Of a stretch of DNA of 35,969 bases, positions 24,395 to 34,981 are shown in pieces. Position numbers and translations under genes: made by a program. Position 1 is the first letter of the stretch. Each line of letters begins with the position of its first letter. The notes beneath the pieces are model-generated. The model saw nothing but the letters and a program-made list of their open reading frames with translations. It was not told where the DNA came from and did not search any database. Source of the stretch: Chitinophaga pinensis (GTDB lineage Bacteria > Bacteroidota > Bacteroidia > NS11-12g > UBA955); NCBI GenBank assembly GCA_945888525.1, contig CAMDAF010000026.1, forward strand, positions 1-35,969, written 5' to 3'.

Positions 24395-24878
24395 GACAAT
24401 TTGAAACCGCTTGAATGGTTTCTGTGTTATACCAATCTATTCCCTCTACCCTTTTCAATTTCTCCCTACCCTTTTTATCGATTAAAATGGTGGTTGGATA
24501 TGCACTCACACCAAGATCTGTTTTCAATTTTGCATCGCTGTGGTAAAAGCTCAAATTGGATTGAAATTTTTCTTTGAATGCTTTAATTTTTGCAATGGGC
24601 TCATCGCTTACCATTAAGATTGTAAGGCTATCGCCAAAACGGTTTTGCAATTTCTGCAGTTCAGGTTGTTCCTTTACGCAATCGCCACACCAAGTTTGGA
24701 AATAAGAAACCACACAAACTTTACCTTTCAAAGATTTCATATCGTAAGCCTGGCTGTCCAAAGTTTTTAGCGCAGGAATTTTAGCATCCATTGGTTTTCT
24801 CATGCTTTTGATAAACACAAAAGAGGCAACACTTGCTAAAAGCAAAGACAAAATGATGTTTGTTTTTAATTTCACCAT
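24387..24878 (-). CDS. TlpA-like periplasmic thioredoxin-fold protein
   Basis: A 163-residue membrane-tethered or exported protein with the thioredoxin fold of the TlpA/ResA/AhpC family. One N-terminal helix (TNIILSLLLASVASFVFI) is followed by the redox site WCGDC (CxxC) in SYFQTWCGDCVKEQP. The cis-Pro region is VSAYPTTILIDKKG. It should reduce periplasmic disulfides, for example in cytochrome maturation or oxidative defence; the partner is unknown. The frame stays open well upstream of the ATG at 24878, but that part runs antisense to the metalloprotease start and has no homology. TACCTTTG lies one base before the ATG. The tail overlaps fmt by 8 bases. Confidence 0.88.
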   Translation of the reverse strand: MVKLKTNIILSLLLASVASFVFIKSMRKPMDAKIPALKTLDSQAYDMKSLKGKVCVVSYFQTWCGDCVKEQPELQKLQNRFGDSLTILMVSDEPIAKIKAFKEKFQSNLSFYHSDAKLKTDLGVSAYPTTILIDKKGREKLKRVEGIDWYNTETIQAVSNCLK

Positions 24879-24879
24879 G

Positions 24880-24887
24880 CAAAGGTA
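24880..24887 (-). promoter_or_regulatory. Promoter -7 box of the TlpA-like gene
   Basis: TACCTTTG on the minus strand is a perfect TAnnTTTG and sits one base upstream of the ATG at 24878. The region 20 bases further up has TTT but no TTG. If used, transcription would start at or just inside the ATG. Confidence 0.45.
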
Positions 24888-25023: not shown

Positions 25024-25026
25024 GAC

Positions 25027-27582
25027 ATGAAACGTAACTTACCTATAACATTGCTCATCTGCTTAATTACAAGCAGCACGACGGCAGCTTTTGCCAAGAA
25101 AAAGAAGCCTGAACCACCAGCAGCACCTAAACCAGCAGCGACAATGACCATCGCTGAAAAGGTCAAAAAATGCAAAAAAATAGATGGTCTTTTTACATTA
25201 TACAGAGACACCACCAATGGCTCATTGATGATGTTGATTAAAAAGACACAACTAAATAATGAATTTATTTATTTCAGTTATGTAGAAAACGGAAATACCA
25301 CTACAGGACATAACAAAGGAACATTTAGAGACAATAAAATTTTCACCATTTCTAAATACTACAACCAAATAGAATTCATTACCCAAAACACATCTTTCTA
25401 TTTTGACCCTAGCAACCCAATTTCAAAGGCTGCCGATGCAAACGTTACAAATGCGGTAATGGCAAGTGAAAAAATTGTGGTAGCAGACGAGGTAAAAGGA
25501 GAATACTTAATTGAAGCAGATAATCTTTTCTTGAGTGAAACCTTGTATCAAATAAAAAGAGCAAGCTCTGGACCAGGCTTTAACTTAGGTGGCTTGAGCA
25601 AAACAAAAACAAAATACCAATCGGTTAAAAACTATCCAGAGAATACTGATATCGTGGTTAAATATGTTTATGACGATCCAAATTCAAGAGGAAGCAGCAG
25701 TGAAGCTATTGCAGATGGGCGCTACGTTGACATCGTTTTGCAGCACAGTTTTATTGAAATGCCAAGAAACGACTACAAGCCAAGAATGGATGATCCGAGA
25801 ATTGGTTATTTTTTAACAGAAATAAATGACATGACCACCACGGAGTCTATAAACTACAAAGACTTAATTCACCGTTGGAACTTGGTAAAAAAGGACCCAA
25901 GTGCGGCTTTATCTGAACCAGTTAAACCAATCACTTGGTGGATTGAAAACACAACCCCTAAAGATTTAAGACCAATCATCAAAGCAGCGATTCTGCAATG
26001 GAATATCGCTTTTGAAAAAGCCGGTTTTAAAAATGCAGTTCAAATATTTGAACAACCAGATGATGCCACTTGGGATGCTGGTGATATCCGATACAATGTG
26101 TTGAGATGGACCAGCAGTCCTGAGCCTCCATTTGGTGGTTACGGTCCAAGTTTTGTTAACCCAAGAACTGGCGAAATATTAGGTGCAGACATTATGTTTG
26201 AATGGGTATTTATCACCAACAGATTAAAATCACAAAAAGTATTTGACAAAGCGGGTATTGAATGGTTGATGAATGAAATAGAATCAGAAGAATCCCATCC
26301 AAGATTTAGCTGTGAGGCTGGCGAGCACATGCACATGCAAAATTTATTGGGCTTGCAGTTCCTAGCTTCGCAAAATGCGAGTGAAGATGAAGTAAATACC
26401 TTCTTAAAAGAGTCATTATACTATTTGGTGTTGCATGAAGTAGGCCATACCCTCGGATTAAACCACAACATGAAAGCCACCCAATTGCATGGTTTGAATG
26501 ATTTATACGACATCAACAAAACCAGAAGCATGGGTTTAGCAGGCAGTGTTATGGATTACCCTGCGGTAAACTTTAGCAATAGAAAAGGTGTCAAATCGCA
26601 ATTTTATACAGACAGACCAGGACCATACGATTTATGGGCAATTGAATTTGGTTACTACCAAGAATCAGACAGCAGCATAGATGCAAGTCGCCGCGACAAC
26701 ATATTGGCAAGAAGCACAGAGCCTGCTTTGTGTTTTGGAAACGATGCAGACGACATGCGCGCGCCGGGTAAAGCCATTGACCCAAGGGTAATGATCGGCG
26801 ACATGAGTAGCGACGCCATCGGATATGCCAGAGAGCGTATTGGTTTAATTAAAACCCTACAAAGCAATTTATTGGCTGAATATGGAAAAGAAAACAGAAG
26901 TTACAACGAGTTGCGCAGCAACTATTTGGTATTAAGTAGCGAATGGGCAGTCCAAGCTGGTGTGGTTTCAAGATACATTGGTGGTGTTTATGTAGACAGA
27001 AGTTTTAGCAACCAAAATTCTACAATTAAGCCATTTACTGCCGTTCCATTGGAGACCCAAAAGAATGCAATGAAAACACTAAGCGAATTTGTTTTTGCAC
27101 CCAATGCCATGGAATTACCCAATGAAATAGCAGCTTATATGCAACAGCAAAGAAGAGGTTATAATTTCTTTAGTTCAGGAGAAGATCCAAAATTGCACAG
27201 AAGGGTTTTAAATGTTCAAATGGCCGTATTAACCCACATCTTGCATCCTAGCACCTTACAAAGAATGCTTGACAGCAAATTGTATGGCAATCAATACGAA
27301 ATTGGTGAAATGTTCAAAGATTTGAGCAACGCCATTTTCCAAGCAGATATGAATGGCAGCATCAACACCTACAGACAAAACCTTCAAATTACTTACATTG
27401 AATTCTTAAGCTATATTTACGAATCACCTCTATATGACCCAATTAGCAAAGCTAAAGCCCATGCTCAATTGACAAATATTCAGAAATTAATTAGCGCATC
27501 TTTGCCTTCGTCGATGGGAGATGCCAAAGAACACAAGAATTACATACTTTCGTCGATAAAAACCGCTTTAGAGCCAAAGTAA
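25027..27582 (+). CDS. Secreted zinc-dependent metalloprotease (DUF5117/DUF4953 type)
   Basis: An 851-residue exported protease. The N-terminal signal peptide (MKRNLPITLLICLITSSTT) ends near AFA and is followed by a Lys/Pro/Ala-rich linker (KKKKPEPPAAPKPAA). A DUF5117-like domain follows at about residues 90-280. The zinc site HEVGHTLGLNH (HExxHxxGxxH) lies near residue 480, with GSVMDYPAVNF shortly after, like the Met-turn of metzincin-type enzymes. The C-terminal ~350 residues form the DUF4953-type helical part. No sorting domain is seen at the C-terminus, so the protein is probably periplasmic or outer-membrane associated. Homologues are common in Bacteroidota; the substrate is unknown. 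It is a single-gene unit ending at a strong terminator. Confidence 0.92.
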   Translation: MKRNLPITLLICLITSSTTAAFAKKKKPEPPAAPKPAATMTIAEKVKKCKKIDGLFTLYRDTTNGSLMMLIKKTQLNNEFIYFSYVENGNTTTGHNKGTFRDNKIFTISKYYNQIEFITQNTSFYFDPSNPISKAADANVTNAVMASEKIVVADEVKGEYLIEADNLFLSETLYQIKRASSGPGFNLGGLSKTKTKYQSVKNYPENTDIVVKYVYDDPNSRGSSSEAIADGRYVDIVLQHSFIEMPRNDYKPRMDDPRIGYFLTEINDMTTTESINYKDLIHRWNLVKKDPSAALSEPVKPITWWIENTTPKDLRPIIKAAILQWNIAFEKAGFKNAVQIFEQPDDATWDAGDIRYNVLRWTSSPEPPFGGYGPSFVNPRTGEILGADIMFEWVFITNRLKSQKVFDKAGIEWLMNEIESEESHPRFSCEAGEHMHMQNLLGLQFLASQNASEDEVNTFLKESLYYLVLHEVGHTLGLNHNMKATQLHGLNDLYDINKTRSMGLAGSVMDYPAVNFSNRKGVKSQFYTDRPGPYDLWAIEFGYYQESDSSIDASRRDNILARSTEPALCFGNDADDMRAPGKAIDPRVMIGDMSSDAIGYARERIGLIKTLQSNLLAEYGKENRSYNELRSNYLVLSSEWAVQAGVVSRYIGGVYVDRSFSNQNSTIKPFTAVPLETQKNAMKTLSEFVFAPNAMELPNEIAAYMQQQRRGYNFFSSGEDPKLHRRVLNVQMAVLTHILHPSTLQRMLDSKLYGNQYEIGEMFKDLSNAIFQADMNGSINTYRQNLQITYIEFLSYIYESPLYDPISKAKAHAQLTNIQKLISASLPSSMGDAKEHKNYILSSIKTALEPK

Positions 27583-31155: not shown

Positions 31156-32079
31156 TTACCAAGTGCCTCGTATCCAATTGCCTAAAAAACCGCCCAGTTC
31201 CATAAGCCAAGCGATGCCCATATGCACCATAATGCCTCCATAAATACTGCGGCTGTGGAAAGCCAAGACCCCTAAAATGGTGCCGCCAAAAAACGAGCTA
31301 ATGGCCTCTCCCATTGGCTTTCCATAATGTATAGACATATAAAAAACAGCCATAGGTAAAATGGCATGTGGTCCAAGGTAACGAATAAAGGCCATGACCA
31401 TAAATCCTCTAAAGAAAAATTCAATAGATATAAAGTCCATCCCATAGAACAATTCATAGGTCAACATATTTAAAACGGTGCCATTGGCATTGTTGATTTT
31501 TCTAAGGCGCGGATAATAATCTAAAAAATCGCTGAGCATACTTGCCCCTGCAATGAGTGGCACCATGCACAAAAGCAGTATCCAATATACTTTTTGTTGA
31601 TGCCCAATGCCACTGAAGCCATACATAGGCATTTCTTTTTTGTCTCTTAAAAACCAAATAAGGGCAACTGGAACAAACAAATATAAGAACCTGAAAATAT
31701 CGTTGTAAACCAAATGGTTGATGTAACAATGCCATTCGACAGAAAAGTAATCGATAATTTTAAGGTGTTGCCAAGTTACCGCACGGAAGGCAAAAATCAT
31801 AAAACCCAAAACCAAAATCAACCAAAATCCGGGTTTTCTGAAAAACGCAAAAGATTTGGAAACTAAGGCATACAATACGAAGGCAAACAAACTATGAATT
31901 GCATACAAGAGCACATAAGCTCCATATTCATTCCATCCTTGCATAGTATCCATGTAAGCTTGTAAACCCCAAGCATAATTTGCATAAACACTAATTGAAC
32001 AAAAAGAAAGCAGAAATACCCAATACCAGATTGGATAATATTGTACATAAGACTTTAATTGATCTATGATTTTCTTCAT
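31156..32079 (-). CDS. CPBP family intramembrane metalloprotease
   Basis: A 307-residue membrane protein with about eight helices. The C-terminal half has the CPBP (Abi/CAAX protease) motifs: SIEFFFRGF (motif 1, with one Glu of the usual EExxxR replaced), FYMSIHYG (motif 2 His) and GGIMVHMGIAW (motif 3 His). These would form the metal site facing the membrane. In bacteria such proteins act in peptide maturation, immunity to bacteriocins or unknown roles. Its ATG overlaps the stop of the LuxE-like gene as ATGA, so the two are translationally coupled. The substitution at the first Glu could lower activity, although variants occur in the family. Confidence 0.85.
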   Translation of the reverse strand: MKKIIDQLKSYVQYYPIWYWVFLLSFCSISVYANYAWGLQAYMDTMQGWNEYGAYVLLYAIHSLFAFVLYALVSKSFAFFRKPGFWLILVLGFMIFAFRAVTWQHLKIIDYFSVEWHCYINHLVYNDIFRFLYLFVPVALIWFLRDKKEMPMYGFSGIGHQQKVYWILLLCMVPLIAGASMLSDFLDYYPRLRKINNANGTVLNMLTYELFYGMDFISIEFFFRGFMVMAFIRYLGPHAILPMAVFYMSIHYGKPMGEAISSFFGGTILGVLAFHSRSIYGGIMVHMGIAWLMELGGFLGNWIRGTW

Positions 32080-33059
32080 ACCAATAAATTACAACCACGC
32101 GTGTCGCTGTGGTCGATGCGGCCTAAAACTTCAAAAGTACCATCGCTGTATACTTTACCCAAATCGGAACTGGCAATAAATGAACAAGAATGTAAATTGG
32201 CCAAATCGATAATATTCAATGCTCCATGTTTATTTGCTATGGGCTTGCTCAGCGGATCGTTGATTTCGCGTGCACTTACACGCATCCAATTGGGTGCTCT
32301 GTATAAGCCATCTTTAAGCGCATAGGCTTGGCTCATCAACTCGGTCATTCCATATTCCCCTGCAACAGAAGAAATTGAAAAGGCTTGTTTCAAATGGCTG
32401 TGCATTTCTTCTCTGGTTATTTCTTTTCTTCGGCCTTTCATACCCCCCGTTTCCAGCACAATGGTGTGCTTGAGTGGGATTTGAAACTGTTCAATGAAAT
32501 CGAGCAGAGCAAAACTCACACCCCATAAAAGTGTTGGCAGAGCTGCTGCTTCATTTTCTTTCAAGTGCTCAACAAGTGCGTTCACTTGGTGCAGGTAAAA
32601 TGAAGAGCCCAAATGCTTGGTGTCTTCTATAAAACCACTGACTTGGTATACGAGCGAAGAATTCTGTCTTTCCAAATAAGAAGGCAATAAAGCCAAATGA
32701 CAATAGTTTGTATGCGGGCCAAAGGCCAAATCAAAACTGGCTTTAAATGCTTGCTTGTATAAGTCTGAAGATTTTACAAAATGGCGGCTAATGCCTTTGC
32801 CCGTCGTACTGCTGCTCTCAAAAACAAGTTCTTCCTTAAATGAATTTGTTTTGACTTCAAATTGTTTAAAAAACTCGATTGGTAGGTATGGAATCTCTTC
32901 TAAATGGATTATCTTTGAAGCATCAACTTGTAGAAAACTGAGATAACGGCTATAAACCTCACAACTTTGGCTTTGGTTTTGGAATACCTGCATGGCAAAG
33001 TCATTGAATTGAGATTTATCCAAGGTAAAAACAGCCTGCTGCAGCTTGTCAAACTCCAT
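32076..33059 (-). CDS. LuxE/PaaK-like acyl-protein synthetase family protein
   Basis: A 327-residue protein of the LuxE-like branch of adenylate-forming enzymes. FESSSTTGKGISRHF, with its Ser/Thr/Gly-rich stretch, is the phosphate-binding-like signature. SVAGEYGMTELMSQAYA is the second family motif, and the tail GRIDHSDTRGCNLLV closes the small C-terminal domain. It probably activates an acyl or carboxylate group as an adenylate; the substrate is unknown. No luciferase, reductase or other lux gene is nearby, so luminescence is not suggested. In Bacteroidota such genes occur alone or near cell-envelope genes. It is translationally coupled to the CPBP gene and diverges from a lipoprotein gene with overlapping start codons. 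Confidence 0.8.
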   Translation of the reverse strand: MEFDKLQQAVFTLDKSQFNDFAMQVFQNQSQSCEVYSRYLSFLQVDASKIIHLEEIPYLPIEFFKQFEVKTNSFKEELVFESSSTTGKGISRHFVKSSDLYKQAFKASFDLAFGPHTNYCHLALLPSYLERQNSSLVYQVSGFIEDTKHLGSSFYLHQVNALVEHLKENEAAALPTLLWGVSFALLDFIEQFQIPLKHTIVLETGGMKGRRKEITREEMHSHLKQAFSISSVAGEYGMTELMSQAYALKDGLYRAPNWMRVSAREINDPLSKPIANKHGALNIIDLANLHSCSFIASSDLGKVYSDGTFEVLGRIDHSDTRGCNLLV

Positions 33060-33573
33060 GCTTCAAAAGTATATCAAAATATCGGTATTCGTATTACTAA
33101 GCGCCTGCAAATCGGAAGTTTTTAATTTCCCAGCAGAGCCGGTCTTAAGCATTAAAAAAACAGTAGAGCAGATTAAATTGAACGGCAAGGATTCTATTTT
33201 AAAAATAACTGTTCACTACACCGACGGCGATGGTGATATTGGCTTAGAACCCTCCGATACCTTGGCACCCTTTAACTATGGAGGAAAATATTTTTACAAT
33301 TTATTGGTAAAAGTTTATGCCGTTGAAAATGGCATAGGGAAAAGAATCCCAATACCTTCGAGCACAGACACGGTAAACTTTAACGACCGCATTGCAAACA
33401 TTACCCCAACAGGTAAAAACAAAGCAATTTACGGGGATTTAACAATAACATTAAGGTCGACTCCCTACCCTGGCATAAAACCAGATTCAATGTATTACAC
33501 GGTACAAATTGCAGATAGAAGTTTACACTTCAGCAACATTGTAAAAACGCCTACTATGCGTTTCGAATTTTAG
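33058..33573 (+). CDS. Lipoprotein of unknown function
   Basis: A 171-residue protein with a lipoprotein signal (MLQKYIKISVFVLLSAC, lipobox LSAC, lipidated Cys17). The mature part is beta-rich and includes HYTDGDGDIGLEPSDT, an Asp-rich run resembling a calcium-binding loop, and ends TPTMRFEF. Similar small Bacteroidota lipoproteins are annotated only as hypothetical. The ATG at 33058 overlaps the ATG of the divergent LuxE-like gene (33059) in the palindrome CATG. The 3' end overlaps the dcd gene by 4 bases. No plus-strand promoter box was seen close to the start, so its promoter must lie inside the LuxE-like coding region. Confidence 0.75.
   Translation: MLQKYIKISVFVLLSACKSEVFNFPAEPVLSIKKTVEQIKLNGKDSILKITVHYTDGDGDIGLEPSDTLAPFNYGGKYFYNLLVKVYAVENGIGKRIPIPSSTDTVNFNDRIANITPTGKNKAIYGDLTITLRSTPYPGIKPDSMYYTVQIADRSLHFSNIVKTPTMRFEF
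33064..33071 (-). promoter_or_regulatory. Promoter -7 box of the LuxE-CPBP unit
   Basis: TACTTTTG on the minus strand matches TAnnTTTG and ends 4 bases before the ATG at 33059. It lies inside the first codons of the divergent lipoprotein gene. No clear -33 TTG is present. Confidence 0.5.
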
Positions 33574-34106
33574 AATTTATTCTTCCACATCATGCTCTCA
33601 ACAGGGCGAATGGTGCGGGTGTTGTATTTTGCATTCTTCTTTTTGTTGTACATGGTTTTAACATCGCCATTTACCACAAAATAGATTAACTGACCGATAG
33701 GCATTCCGTAATAAATCTTTACAGGTTGGGCCACGCTAATTTCTAAGGTCCAGGTATTGCAAAAACCAACATCACCTTTACCTGCAGTGGCGTGGATATC
33801 GATACCTAATCGACCGGTGCTGCTTTTGCCTTCTAGAAAAGGAACATGGCTGTGCGTTTCGGTATATTCTTCGGTAACGCCCAAATACAAAGTGCCAGGC
33901 TGCAAAACAAAACCATCCTGAGGAATTTCGAAATGGTCAATTTTATTGTGCGCTTTAGAATCCAAAACGCGGTCTTGATAGGTTGCAAGGTATCTTCCAA
34001 GGTGCACATCATAACTATTGGTTCCTAAACACTCAGGGCGATAAGGCTCAATTAAAATGGTTCCCTTTTCGATTTCTTCTAAAATTTGGTAGTCTGTTAA
34101 TATCAT
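33570..34106 (-). CDS. dcd: dCTP deaminase
   Basis: A 178-residue enzyme that deaminates dCTP to dUTP on the route to dTTP. Features are MILTDYQILEEIEKG at the start, GTNSYDVHLG, and the catalytic region EGKSSTGRLGIDIHATAGKG, which contains the Arg and Ser of the family, followed by TWTLEIS with the active-site Glu. The ATG at 34106 overlaps the stop of the WD40 gene as ATGA; the frame extends a little further upstream, but this start gives the family N-terminus. It probably depends on that gene for translation. Dcd versus the bifunctional dCTP deaminase-dUTPase cannot be settled by eye. Confidence 0.92.
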   Translation of the reverse strand: MILTDYQILEEIEKGTILIEPYRPECLGTNSYDVHLGRYLATYQDRVLDSKAHNKIDHFEIPQDGFVLQPGTLYLGVTEEYTETHSHVPFLEGKSSTGRLGIDIHATAGKGDVGFCNTWTLEISVAQPVKIYYGMPIGQLIYFVVNGDVKTMYNKKKNAKYNTRTIRPVESMMWKNKF

Positions 34107-34981
34107 TTTTGGTCTTGGATTTCGAAGCACATCAGCGTGCGGTCATCACTGCACGAAATAAAATTGTTTTTATCAAACCACAAAATTTTATTCACTGAAC
34201 TTCGATGCGCGTTTTGCTTCGACAAATTTACAACTTTTAAAAGTTTGTTTTCCCTTACATCCCACAATTTTATTTCTTTGTCCATACTTCCACTCAAGAG
34301 TCTTGAATTTTCTTTGTTTACAGCCAAAGTGTGCACATGCAACAAATGGGCATTTAAAGTCTCTTTTTGTATCAAGTTGTCGTAAAAATTGATGCGCGCA
34401 TCTTTTCCCCCGCTGAACAATTTGCCAGTATTTGGATCGTAAGCCAAAGAAAAAACACTACCCTCATGGGCCAGCAAAACGTCGTCAATTTCTAAATTGT
34501 AATCTAAAATTGTAATTTTTCCATCGGAACAAGCCAAAGCGAATCCAGTTTTATAAACAATTATTTGACGGATACTTTTATTTGAAACCTGCAGCGTTTT
34601 GATTAATTCAAAATCAAGGTTAAATCCCCTCATAAAACCATCGCCAGAAACAATAAAGATGCGCTCTTGATCGAACAAAATATCAAATATTGGAGAATCC
34701 GAAACTTTCAAAAATTTAAACAAATTAAATTTAAGGTCAAACACACTGAGGTTTCCTTTTTGGGTGCCTGCCAATATATAATCTTGGGTCGAACACAAAG
34801 CATAACATGCTGCATCTAACTTTGCACGCATTACGCCGTCTTCCTGATTCAAATTCCACTCAACCAAAAGGGTGTCGGCTCCTGCGCTAAAAAAACCGTT
34901 CCCATACGGATTTAAACACATTGCATATACTGCTTGTGTATGTCCTATAAACTCGCGTATTTTTACCACCTCAATTGCCAT
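34103..34981 (-). CDS. WD40 repeat protein
   Basis: A 292-residue beta-propeller protein with about seven WD40 blades. Clear repeats include IGHTQAVYAMCLNPYGNGFF...LVEWNL, AHEGSVFSLAYDPNTGKLFS, AHLLHVHTLAVNKENSRLLS...IKLWDV and NAHRSSVNKILWF. The propeller probably serves as a protein-binding scaffold; no enzymatic domain is attached. The ATG at 34981 (MAIEVVKIREF) is chosen because the longer upstream frame runs antisense through the phosphopantetheinyl transferase gene and has no repeats. Its start codon overlaps that of the divergent gene in CATG, and its stop overlaps the dcd start. Its link with nucleotide metabolism is positional only. Confidence 0.88.
   Translation of the reverse strand: MAIEVVKIREFIGHTQAVYAMCLNPYGNGFFSAGADTLLVEWNLNQEDGVMRAKLDAACYALCSTQDYILAGTQKGNLSVFDLKFNLFKFLKVSDSPIFDILFDQERIFIVSGDGFMRGFNLDFELIKTLQVSNKSIRQIIVYKTGFALACSDGKITILDYNLEIDDVLLAHEGSVFSLAYDPNTGKLFSGGKDARINFYDNLIQKETLNAHLLHVHTLAVNKENSRLLSGSMDKEIKLWDVRENKLLKVVNLSKQNAHRSSVNKILWFDKNNFISCSDDRTLMCFEIQDQK

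Follow-up and report, generated by a model that had tools for sequence, protein, structure and literature searches.

A divergent LuxE-like/lipoprotein gene pair with overlapping start codons and candidate promoters embedded in the opposing coding sequences

Analysis of a 35,969-nucleotide stretch of DNA (the window) identified a conserved head-to-head gene pair that lacks noncoding DNA between its members and in which, as we consider likely, the two promoters are reciprocally embedded and face each other. In this arrangement each coding sequence would house the housekeeping-type (sigma-A, TAnnTTTG) promoter of its neighbor. Divergent overlapping pairs are described as strongly underrepresented in prokaryotes, probably owing to the upstream regulatory DNA that both genes need (PMC2174442). 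The synonymous-site evidence presented here suggests that both promoters can be encoded in the opposing coding sequences and kept family-wide, which would represent a new form of the known divergent overlaps. The pair provides a natural system for measuring the constraint that promoters place on protein sequence, for following promoter relocation inside coding DNA and for asking whether face-to-face promoters act as switches, and RNA 5'-end mapping can test the predicted boxes and RNA starts directly.

The gene pair and its shared start

The pair and the genes that flank it are as follows.

32076–33059, minus strand: gene for a LuxE-like acyl-protein synthetase of 327 aa (Pfam LuxE PF04443, E 5.2e-10)
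33058–33573, plus strand: gene for a 171-aa lipoprotein with an LSAC lipobox (Cys17), belonging to no family in Pfam or NCBIfam
33057–33060, both strands: CATG tetramer with the LuxE-like ATG (33059-33057, minus) and the lipoprotein ATG (33058-33060, plus)
31156–32079, minus strand: gene for a CPBP/Rce1-like membrane protease, coupled through ATGA to the end of the LuxE-like gene
33570–34130, minus strand: gene for dCTP deaminase, given here as the GTG-start frame; the likelier start is an internal ATG at 34106

The CATG holds both start codons, which overlap by 2 nt. The initial annotation had placed the two ATGs in this palindrome, and every coordinate that it gave is correct. The tetramer is conserved in 12 of the 13 genus genomes carrying the pair, the exception (locus L092) having a 2-nt gap. 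The genome from which the window derives comprises 2.42 Mb in 63 contigs and its relatives are Bacteroidota records; across the genus, the lipoprotein and LuxE-like genes occur together in 13/17 genomes and neither is found in the other 4. This is a divergent overlapping gene pair with a 2-nt start overlap, of which both genes are conserved. In 436 kb sampled from the genome (the window and 20 other stretches; longest-ATG open reading frames of at least 100 aa), one of 44 divergent pairs overlaps, and that one is the LuxE-like/lipoprotein pair. The shared-start layout is beyond chance.

The LuxE-like protein scores 39.2 bits against PF04443, above the gathering cut-off of 24.9, but only 30.5 bits against the true LuxE equivalog NF052244 (NCBIfam), for which the cut-off is 550; we therefore name it only LuxE-like. 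The lipoprotein starts with the signal peptide MLQKYIKISVFVLLSAC, which contains the lipobox, and Cys17 is invariant in an alignment of 24 sequences and in the 13 genus sequences, as in bacterial lipoproteins. Its structural model (pLDDT 80.6) consists mostly of β-strands and is probably a β-sandwich. A Foldseek search with this model gave no match at E ≤ 0.001, and sequence searches of the PDB gave none for either protein. The CPBP/Rce1-like gene adjoins the LuxE-like gene in all 13 genus loci. At the other end of the pair, the lipoprotein stop codon overlaps that of the convergent dCTP deaminase gene at 33570-33573, which leaves the lipoprotein gene flanked by noncoding DNA at neither end; a dCTP deaminase gene lies near the lipoprotein gene in 8/13 genus loci.

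Candidate promoter boxes in the opposing genes

The candidate promoter elements of the pair, with the RNA features predicted from them, are:

33064–33071, minus strand: −7 box TACTTTTG of the LuxE-like gene, lying in the Gln-Lys-Tyr codons (3-5) of the lipoprotein gene
32910–32917, plus strand: −7 box TATCTTTG, attributed to the lipoprotein gene and lying in codons 48-50 of LuxE
33059, minus strand: predicted LuxE-like transcription start on the A of the ATG (leaderless mRNA), from the 4-nt box spacing
32922–33057, plus strand: predicted lipoprotein 5' UTR of 136 nt, running antisense to LuxE codons 1-45 (derived by applying the −12 to −5 rule to the box)
32922–33059, both strands: predicted 138-nt 5' overlap of the two transcripts, with starts at 33059 (minus) and 32922 (plus)

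The first box, read as CAAAAGTA on the plus strand and TACTTTTG on the minus strand, sits within the lipoprotein gene, just as the initial annotation had claimed. The second was absent from that annotation and was found here. With this reciprocal box, the more general claim that each promoter must lie inside the neighbor is supported by conservation in both genes: each box matches TAnnTTTG, the −7 consensus of Bacteroidota sigma-A promoters, in 13/13 genus genomes (which are related, so that these counts are not independent events), and each occupies the sole such place in its gene. In contrast to the usual sigma-A promoters of this phylum, the LuxE box lies within a signal-peptide sequence and shares its bases with codons 3-5.

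The LuxE box takes the form TA[CT]TTTTG in the genus. A scan of the whole lipoprotein gene revealed antisense TAnnTTTG in 13/13 at codon 3 alone, the next best place reaching 2/13. When the lipoprotein codons were resampled with the protein held fixed, 13/13 was reached in 6 of 1000 trials. Residues 3-5 are an invariant QKY among the 13 genus sequences, while the rest of the signal peptide is variable. The box lies 4 nt upstream of the LuxE ATG in 12/13 genus genomes and 8 nt upstream in L092. Inspection by eye of the 35 nt upstream of the LuxE box in the 13 genomes showed no conserved TTG (−33 element) at the expected distance.

The corresponding scan of the LuxE gene identified codon 48 as the single place with an antisense box in 13/13, the next best being found in 1/13. 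Resampling of the LuxE codons with the protein fixed gave at most 6/13 over 300 trials. Codon resampling ignores the tree and kinship of the genomes, and comparing columns inside these genes provides the better control: the third base of LuxE codons 48 and 50 is A in 13/13 although the encoded residues vary (S/T/A and I/V, respectively), and in third-base conservation these codons rank first and second among 85 highly degenerate LuxE columns, followed by columns at 11 and then 9 of 13. Moreover, variation within this box is confined to its two "n" positions in the 13 genomes. The box stands 140 nt upstream of the lipoprotein ATG. No lipoprotein promoter near its own ATG was found in the genus, this being the best conserved box, and across the 13 genomes no other conserved lipoprotein-strand box was seen up to 200 nt upstream (the next best has a mean of 4.2 of 6); the L092 junction is shifted by 4 nt, which lowers its score for the lipoprotein box when sequences are aligned by junction.

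In F. psychrophilum the −7 box is reported to occupy positions −12 to −5, a placement given for Flavobacterium (PMC9723704). Together with the 4-nt spacer, this placement predicts transcription from the A of the LuxE ATG and hence a leaderless LuxE-like mRNA. Leaderless mRNAs are put at 5.5% in F. psychrophilum (PMC9723704), and 5' UTRs of less than 10 nt at about 3.7% in B. thetaiotaomicron (PMC7366714). In the genome sample, 27/303 genes have boxes 2-12 nt before the ATG, against about 0.21 expected per position, and the sequences suggest that leaderless mRNAs, or ones with very short leaders, may be frequent in the window's genome.

Conservation in the genus, family and order

A divergent lipoprotein gene adjoins the LuxE-like gene in 111/130 loci, representing 99 distinct junctions. 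At the order level we assembled 49 loci from 19 genera in two families; the set leaves out L106, which was fetched (1 of 50) but gave no lipoprotein match, and six of the 56 LuxE matches lie outside the analysis (G019, G020, G031, G036, G058 and a weak second match in G028). Starts in this set were chosen by a signal-peptide rule, an earlier rule having been dropped because it mis-called several, among them L091 (+64), L092 (+32), L135 (+55) and L137 (−158). With these starts 48/49 pairs overlap, 23 of them exactly by CATG, in 9 genera. The relative phase of the two frames is common to 47/49 loci. As phase is independent of the choice of in-frame start, its constancy indicates, by our inference, that no noncoding spacer was present while the order diversified. 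Held-out loci of the family, fetched after the patterns had been seen, were in phase in 20/20 cases and carried a box in both genes in 20/20.

Boxes were found in both genes in 39/49 order loci, one or both being missing in the other 10, and their positions differ between lineages. The genus f2g15 carries them in LuxE in 5/7 loci and in the lipoprotein gene in 7/7, at places other than those of the window's genus. In f2g16 (6/6 and 6/6) and in the mixed f1 genera (7/9 and 7/9) the boxes likewise have their own positions. In f2g17/18 the box in LuxE, which would be the lipoprotein promoter, is present in only 1/5 and that in the lipoprotein gene in 4/5. More distant relatives, including many Cytophagales records, keep the pair with spacers of mostly 27-153 nt. 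Overlap is thus not required for the pair to work.

Two further groups of loci are worth recording. Three loci labeled Cytophagales/Flammeovirgaceae (L011, L012 and L017), in which a spacer separates the genes, also have TATCTTTG in LuxE, at the codons that hold it in the window's genus. A separate group (L024, L037, L041, L044 and L051) has a 9-nt start overlap and its own box pair, with the LuxE box 5 nt before the ATG in 5/5 and the lipoprotein box 22 nt before the ATG in 5/5.

The persistence of the overlap could be passive. Under such a lock-in an ancestral spacer was lost, promoters were used or arose inside the neighbors, and the overlap then persisted without a regulatory role, since shared bases cannot drift and a spacer is not easily regained. 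We judge the case for this reading to be evenly poised; it contests only the regulatory step taken up below and leaves the anatomy of the pair unaffected. In favor of lock-in, the phase stays fixed in the order set and in the held-out loci while starts shift in whole-codon steps and genera differ in where the boxes lie. A LuxE tree used to ask if CATG had a single origin requires 8 changes of the CATG state, of which well supported branches force at least 3; this tree was made by a quick method with 17/49 rows under half filled, and gain and loss are not distinguishable on it. The retention of the pair in relatives with spacers and the movement of the promoters are likewise consistent with lock-in. 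On its own, however, lock-in does not predict RNA overlap in every two-box lineage beyond the need for an embedded promoter.

Predicted transcripts and their possible interference

In the arrangement that we favor, with reciprocally embedded promoters, polymerase bound at 33064-33071 would initiate the LuxE-CPBP mRNA at the A of the LuxE start codon, and polymerase bound at 32910-32917 would initiate the lipoprotein mRNA about 136 nt upstream of its ATG. The promoters would face each other, either polymerase would have to traverse the opposite promoter, and the two RNAs would be complementary at their 5' ends over about 138 nt.

Such a layout could act as a switch in cis that renders expression of the two genes mutually exclusive by way of promoter occlusion, polymerase collision and antisense pairing. 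This step is less certain than the anatomy, and we advance it tentatively. Transcriptional interference and antisense pairing would be joined by masking of the leaderless LuxE start by the lipoprotein 5' UTR, a contribution that we propose with the same reserve. The predicted 5' overlap is 138 nt in 12/13 genus genomes and 142 nt in the thirteenth, which is in keeping with a switch, but its length varies from about 28 to 174 nt across lineages and distant relatives have spacers. Moreover, a positive RNA overlap largely follows by construction once the promoters lie inside the neighbors. It is doubtful that a cis-acting toggle inside two coding sequences holds the LuxE-like/CPBP operon and the lipoprotein gene mutually exclusive throughout the order, with promoters relocating repeatedly and RNA overlap retained.

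Phage 186 pL-pR, lambda PR-PRE and pCF10 prgQ/prgX are phage or plasmid systems with known regulators. They resemble the present pair in having convergent promoters and overlapping 5' RNAs, and interference is described in these similar layouts, which counts in favor of a switch (PMC4519249). Unlike them, the pair described here would have both promoters within the protein-coding sequence of two chromosomal genes. By analogy, the excludon is the nearest named concept. Excludons with long 5' UTR overlaps have been described, which also favors a switch, and as in the present prediction their opposite transcripts are complementary at the 5' ends and RNA starts lie inside the neighboring coding sequence (PMC7154746). 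In contrast, the coding sequences themselves overlap here, both promoters appear to be embedded and one mRNA is predicted to be leaderless; exclusive expression of the present pair is a tentative proposal. Divergent overlaps in prokaryotes share with our pair the overlap of 5' coding ends on opposite strands, but in the present case candidate elements can be located and the overlap is maintained across family and order. Searches of the open-licence PMC literature on divergent overlaps with shared starts, promoters inside the neighbor and acyl-protein synthetases in Bacteroidetes found no description of the LuxE-like/lipoprotein pair or of reciprocal promoter embedding.

The assignment of the box in LuxE codons 48-50 could also be questioned, as it might drive an antisense RNA against LuxE and not the lipoprotein mRNA. 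The 140 nt to the lipoprotein ATG would make a long leader, and in F. psychrophilum antisense RNAs are reported to overlap 281 coding sequences (PMC9723704). This reading is nevertheless improbable, given that the lipoprotein strand offers no other conserved box within the 200 nt scanned in the 13 genomes.

A final alternative concerns the start codons, which are frequently mis-called in general: one gene might begin further in, making the overlap an annotation artefact. While the rarity of divergent overlaps (PMC2174442) adds to this suspicion, such an error is very improbable here because the signal peptide MLQKYIKISVFVLLSAC requires the ATG at 33058-33060, no conserved in-frame alternative start exists among the 13 genus genomes (a TTG four codons upstream is present only in the window and its nearest relative) and the phase of the two frames does not depend on the starts chosen.

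Elsewhere in the window, a CATG at 25026-25029 is open on both strands. We rejected it as another shared start because the minus-strand gene there likelier starts at 24878, where its signal peptide begins. Within 24876-24887, this thioredoxin-like gene on the minus strand carries TACCTTTG only 1 nt before that likely ATG, a spacing that would place the expected RNA start inside the thioredoxin-like frame. Across L111-L130 and the window, the distances of −7 boxes lying 2-12 nt before an ATG peak at 4 and 8 nt.
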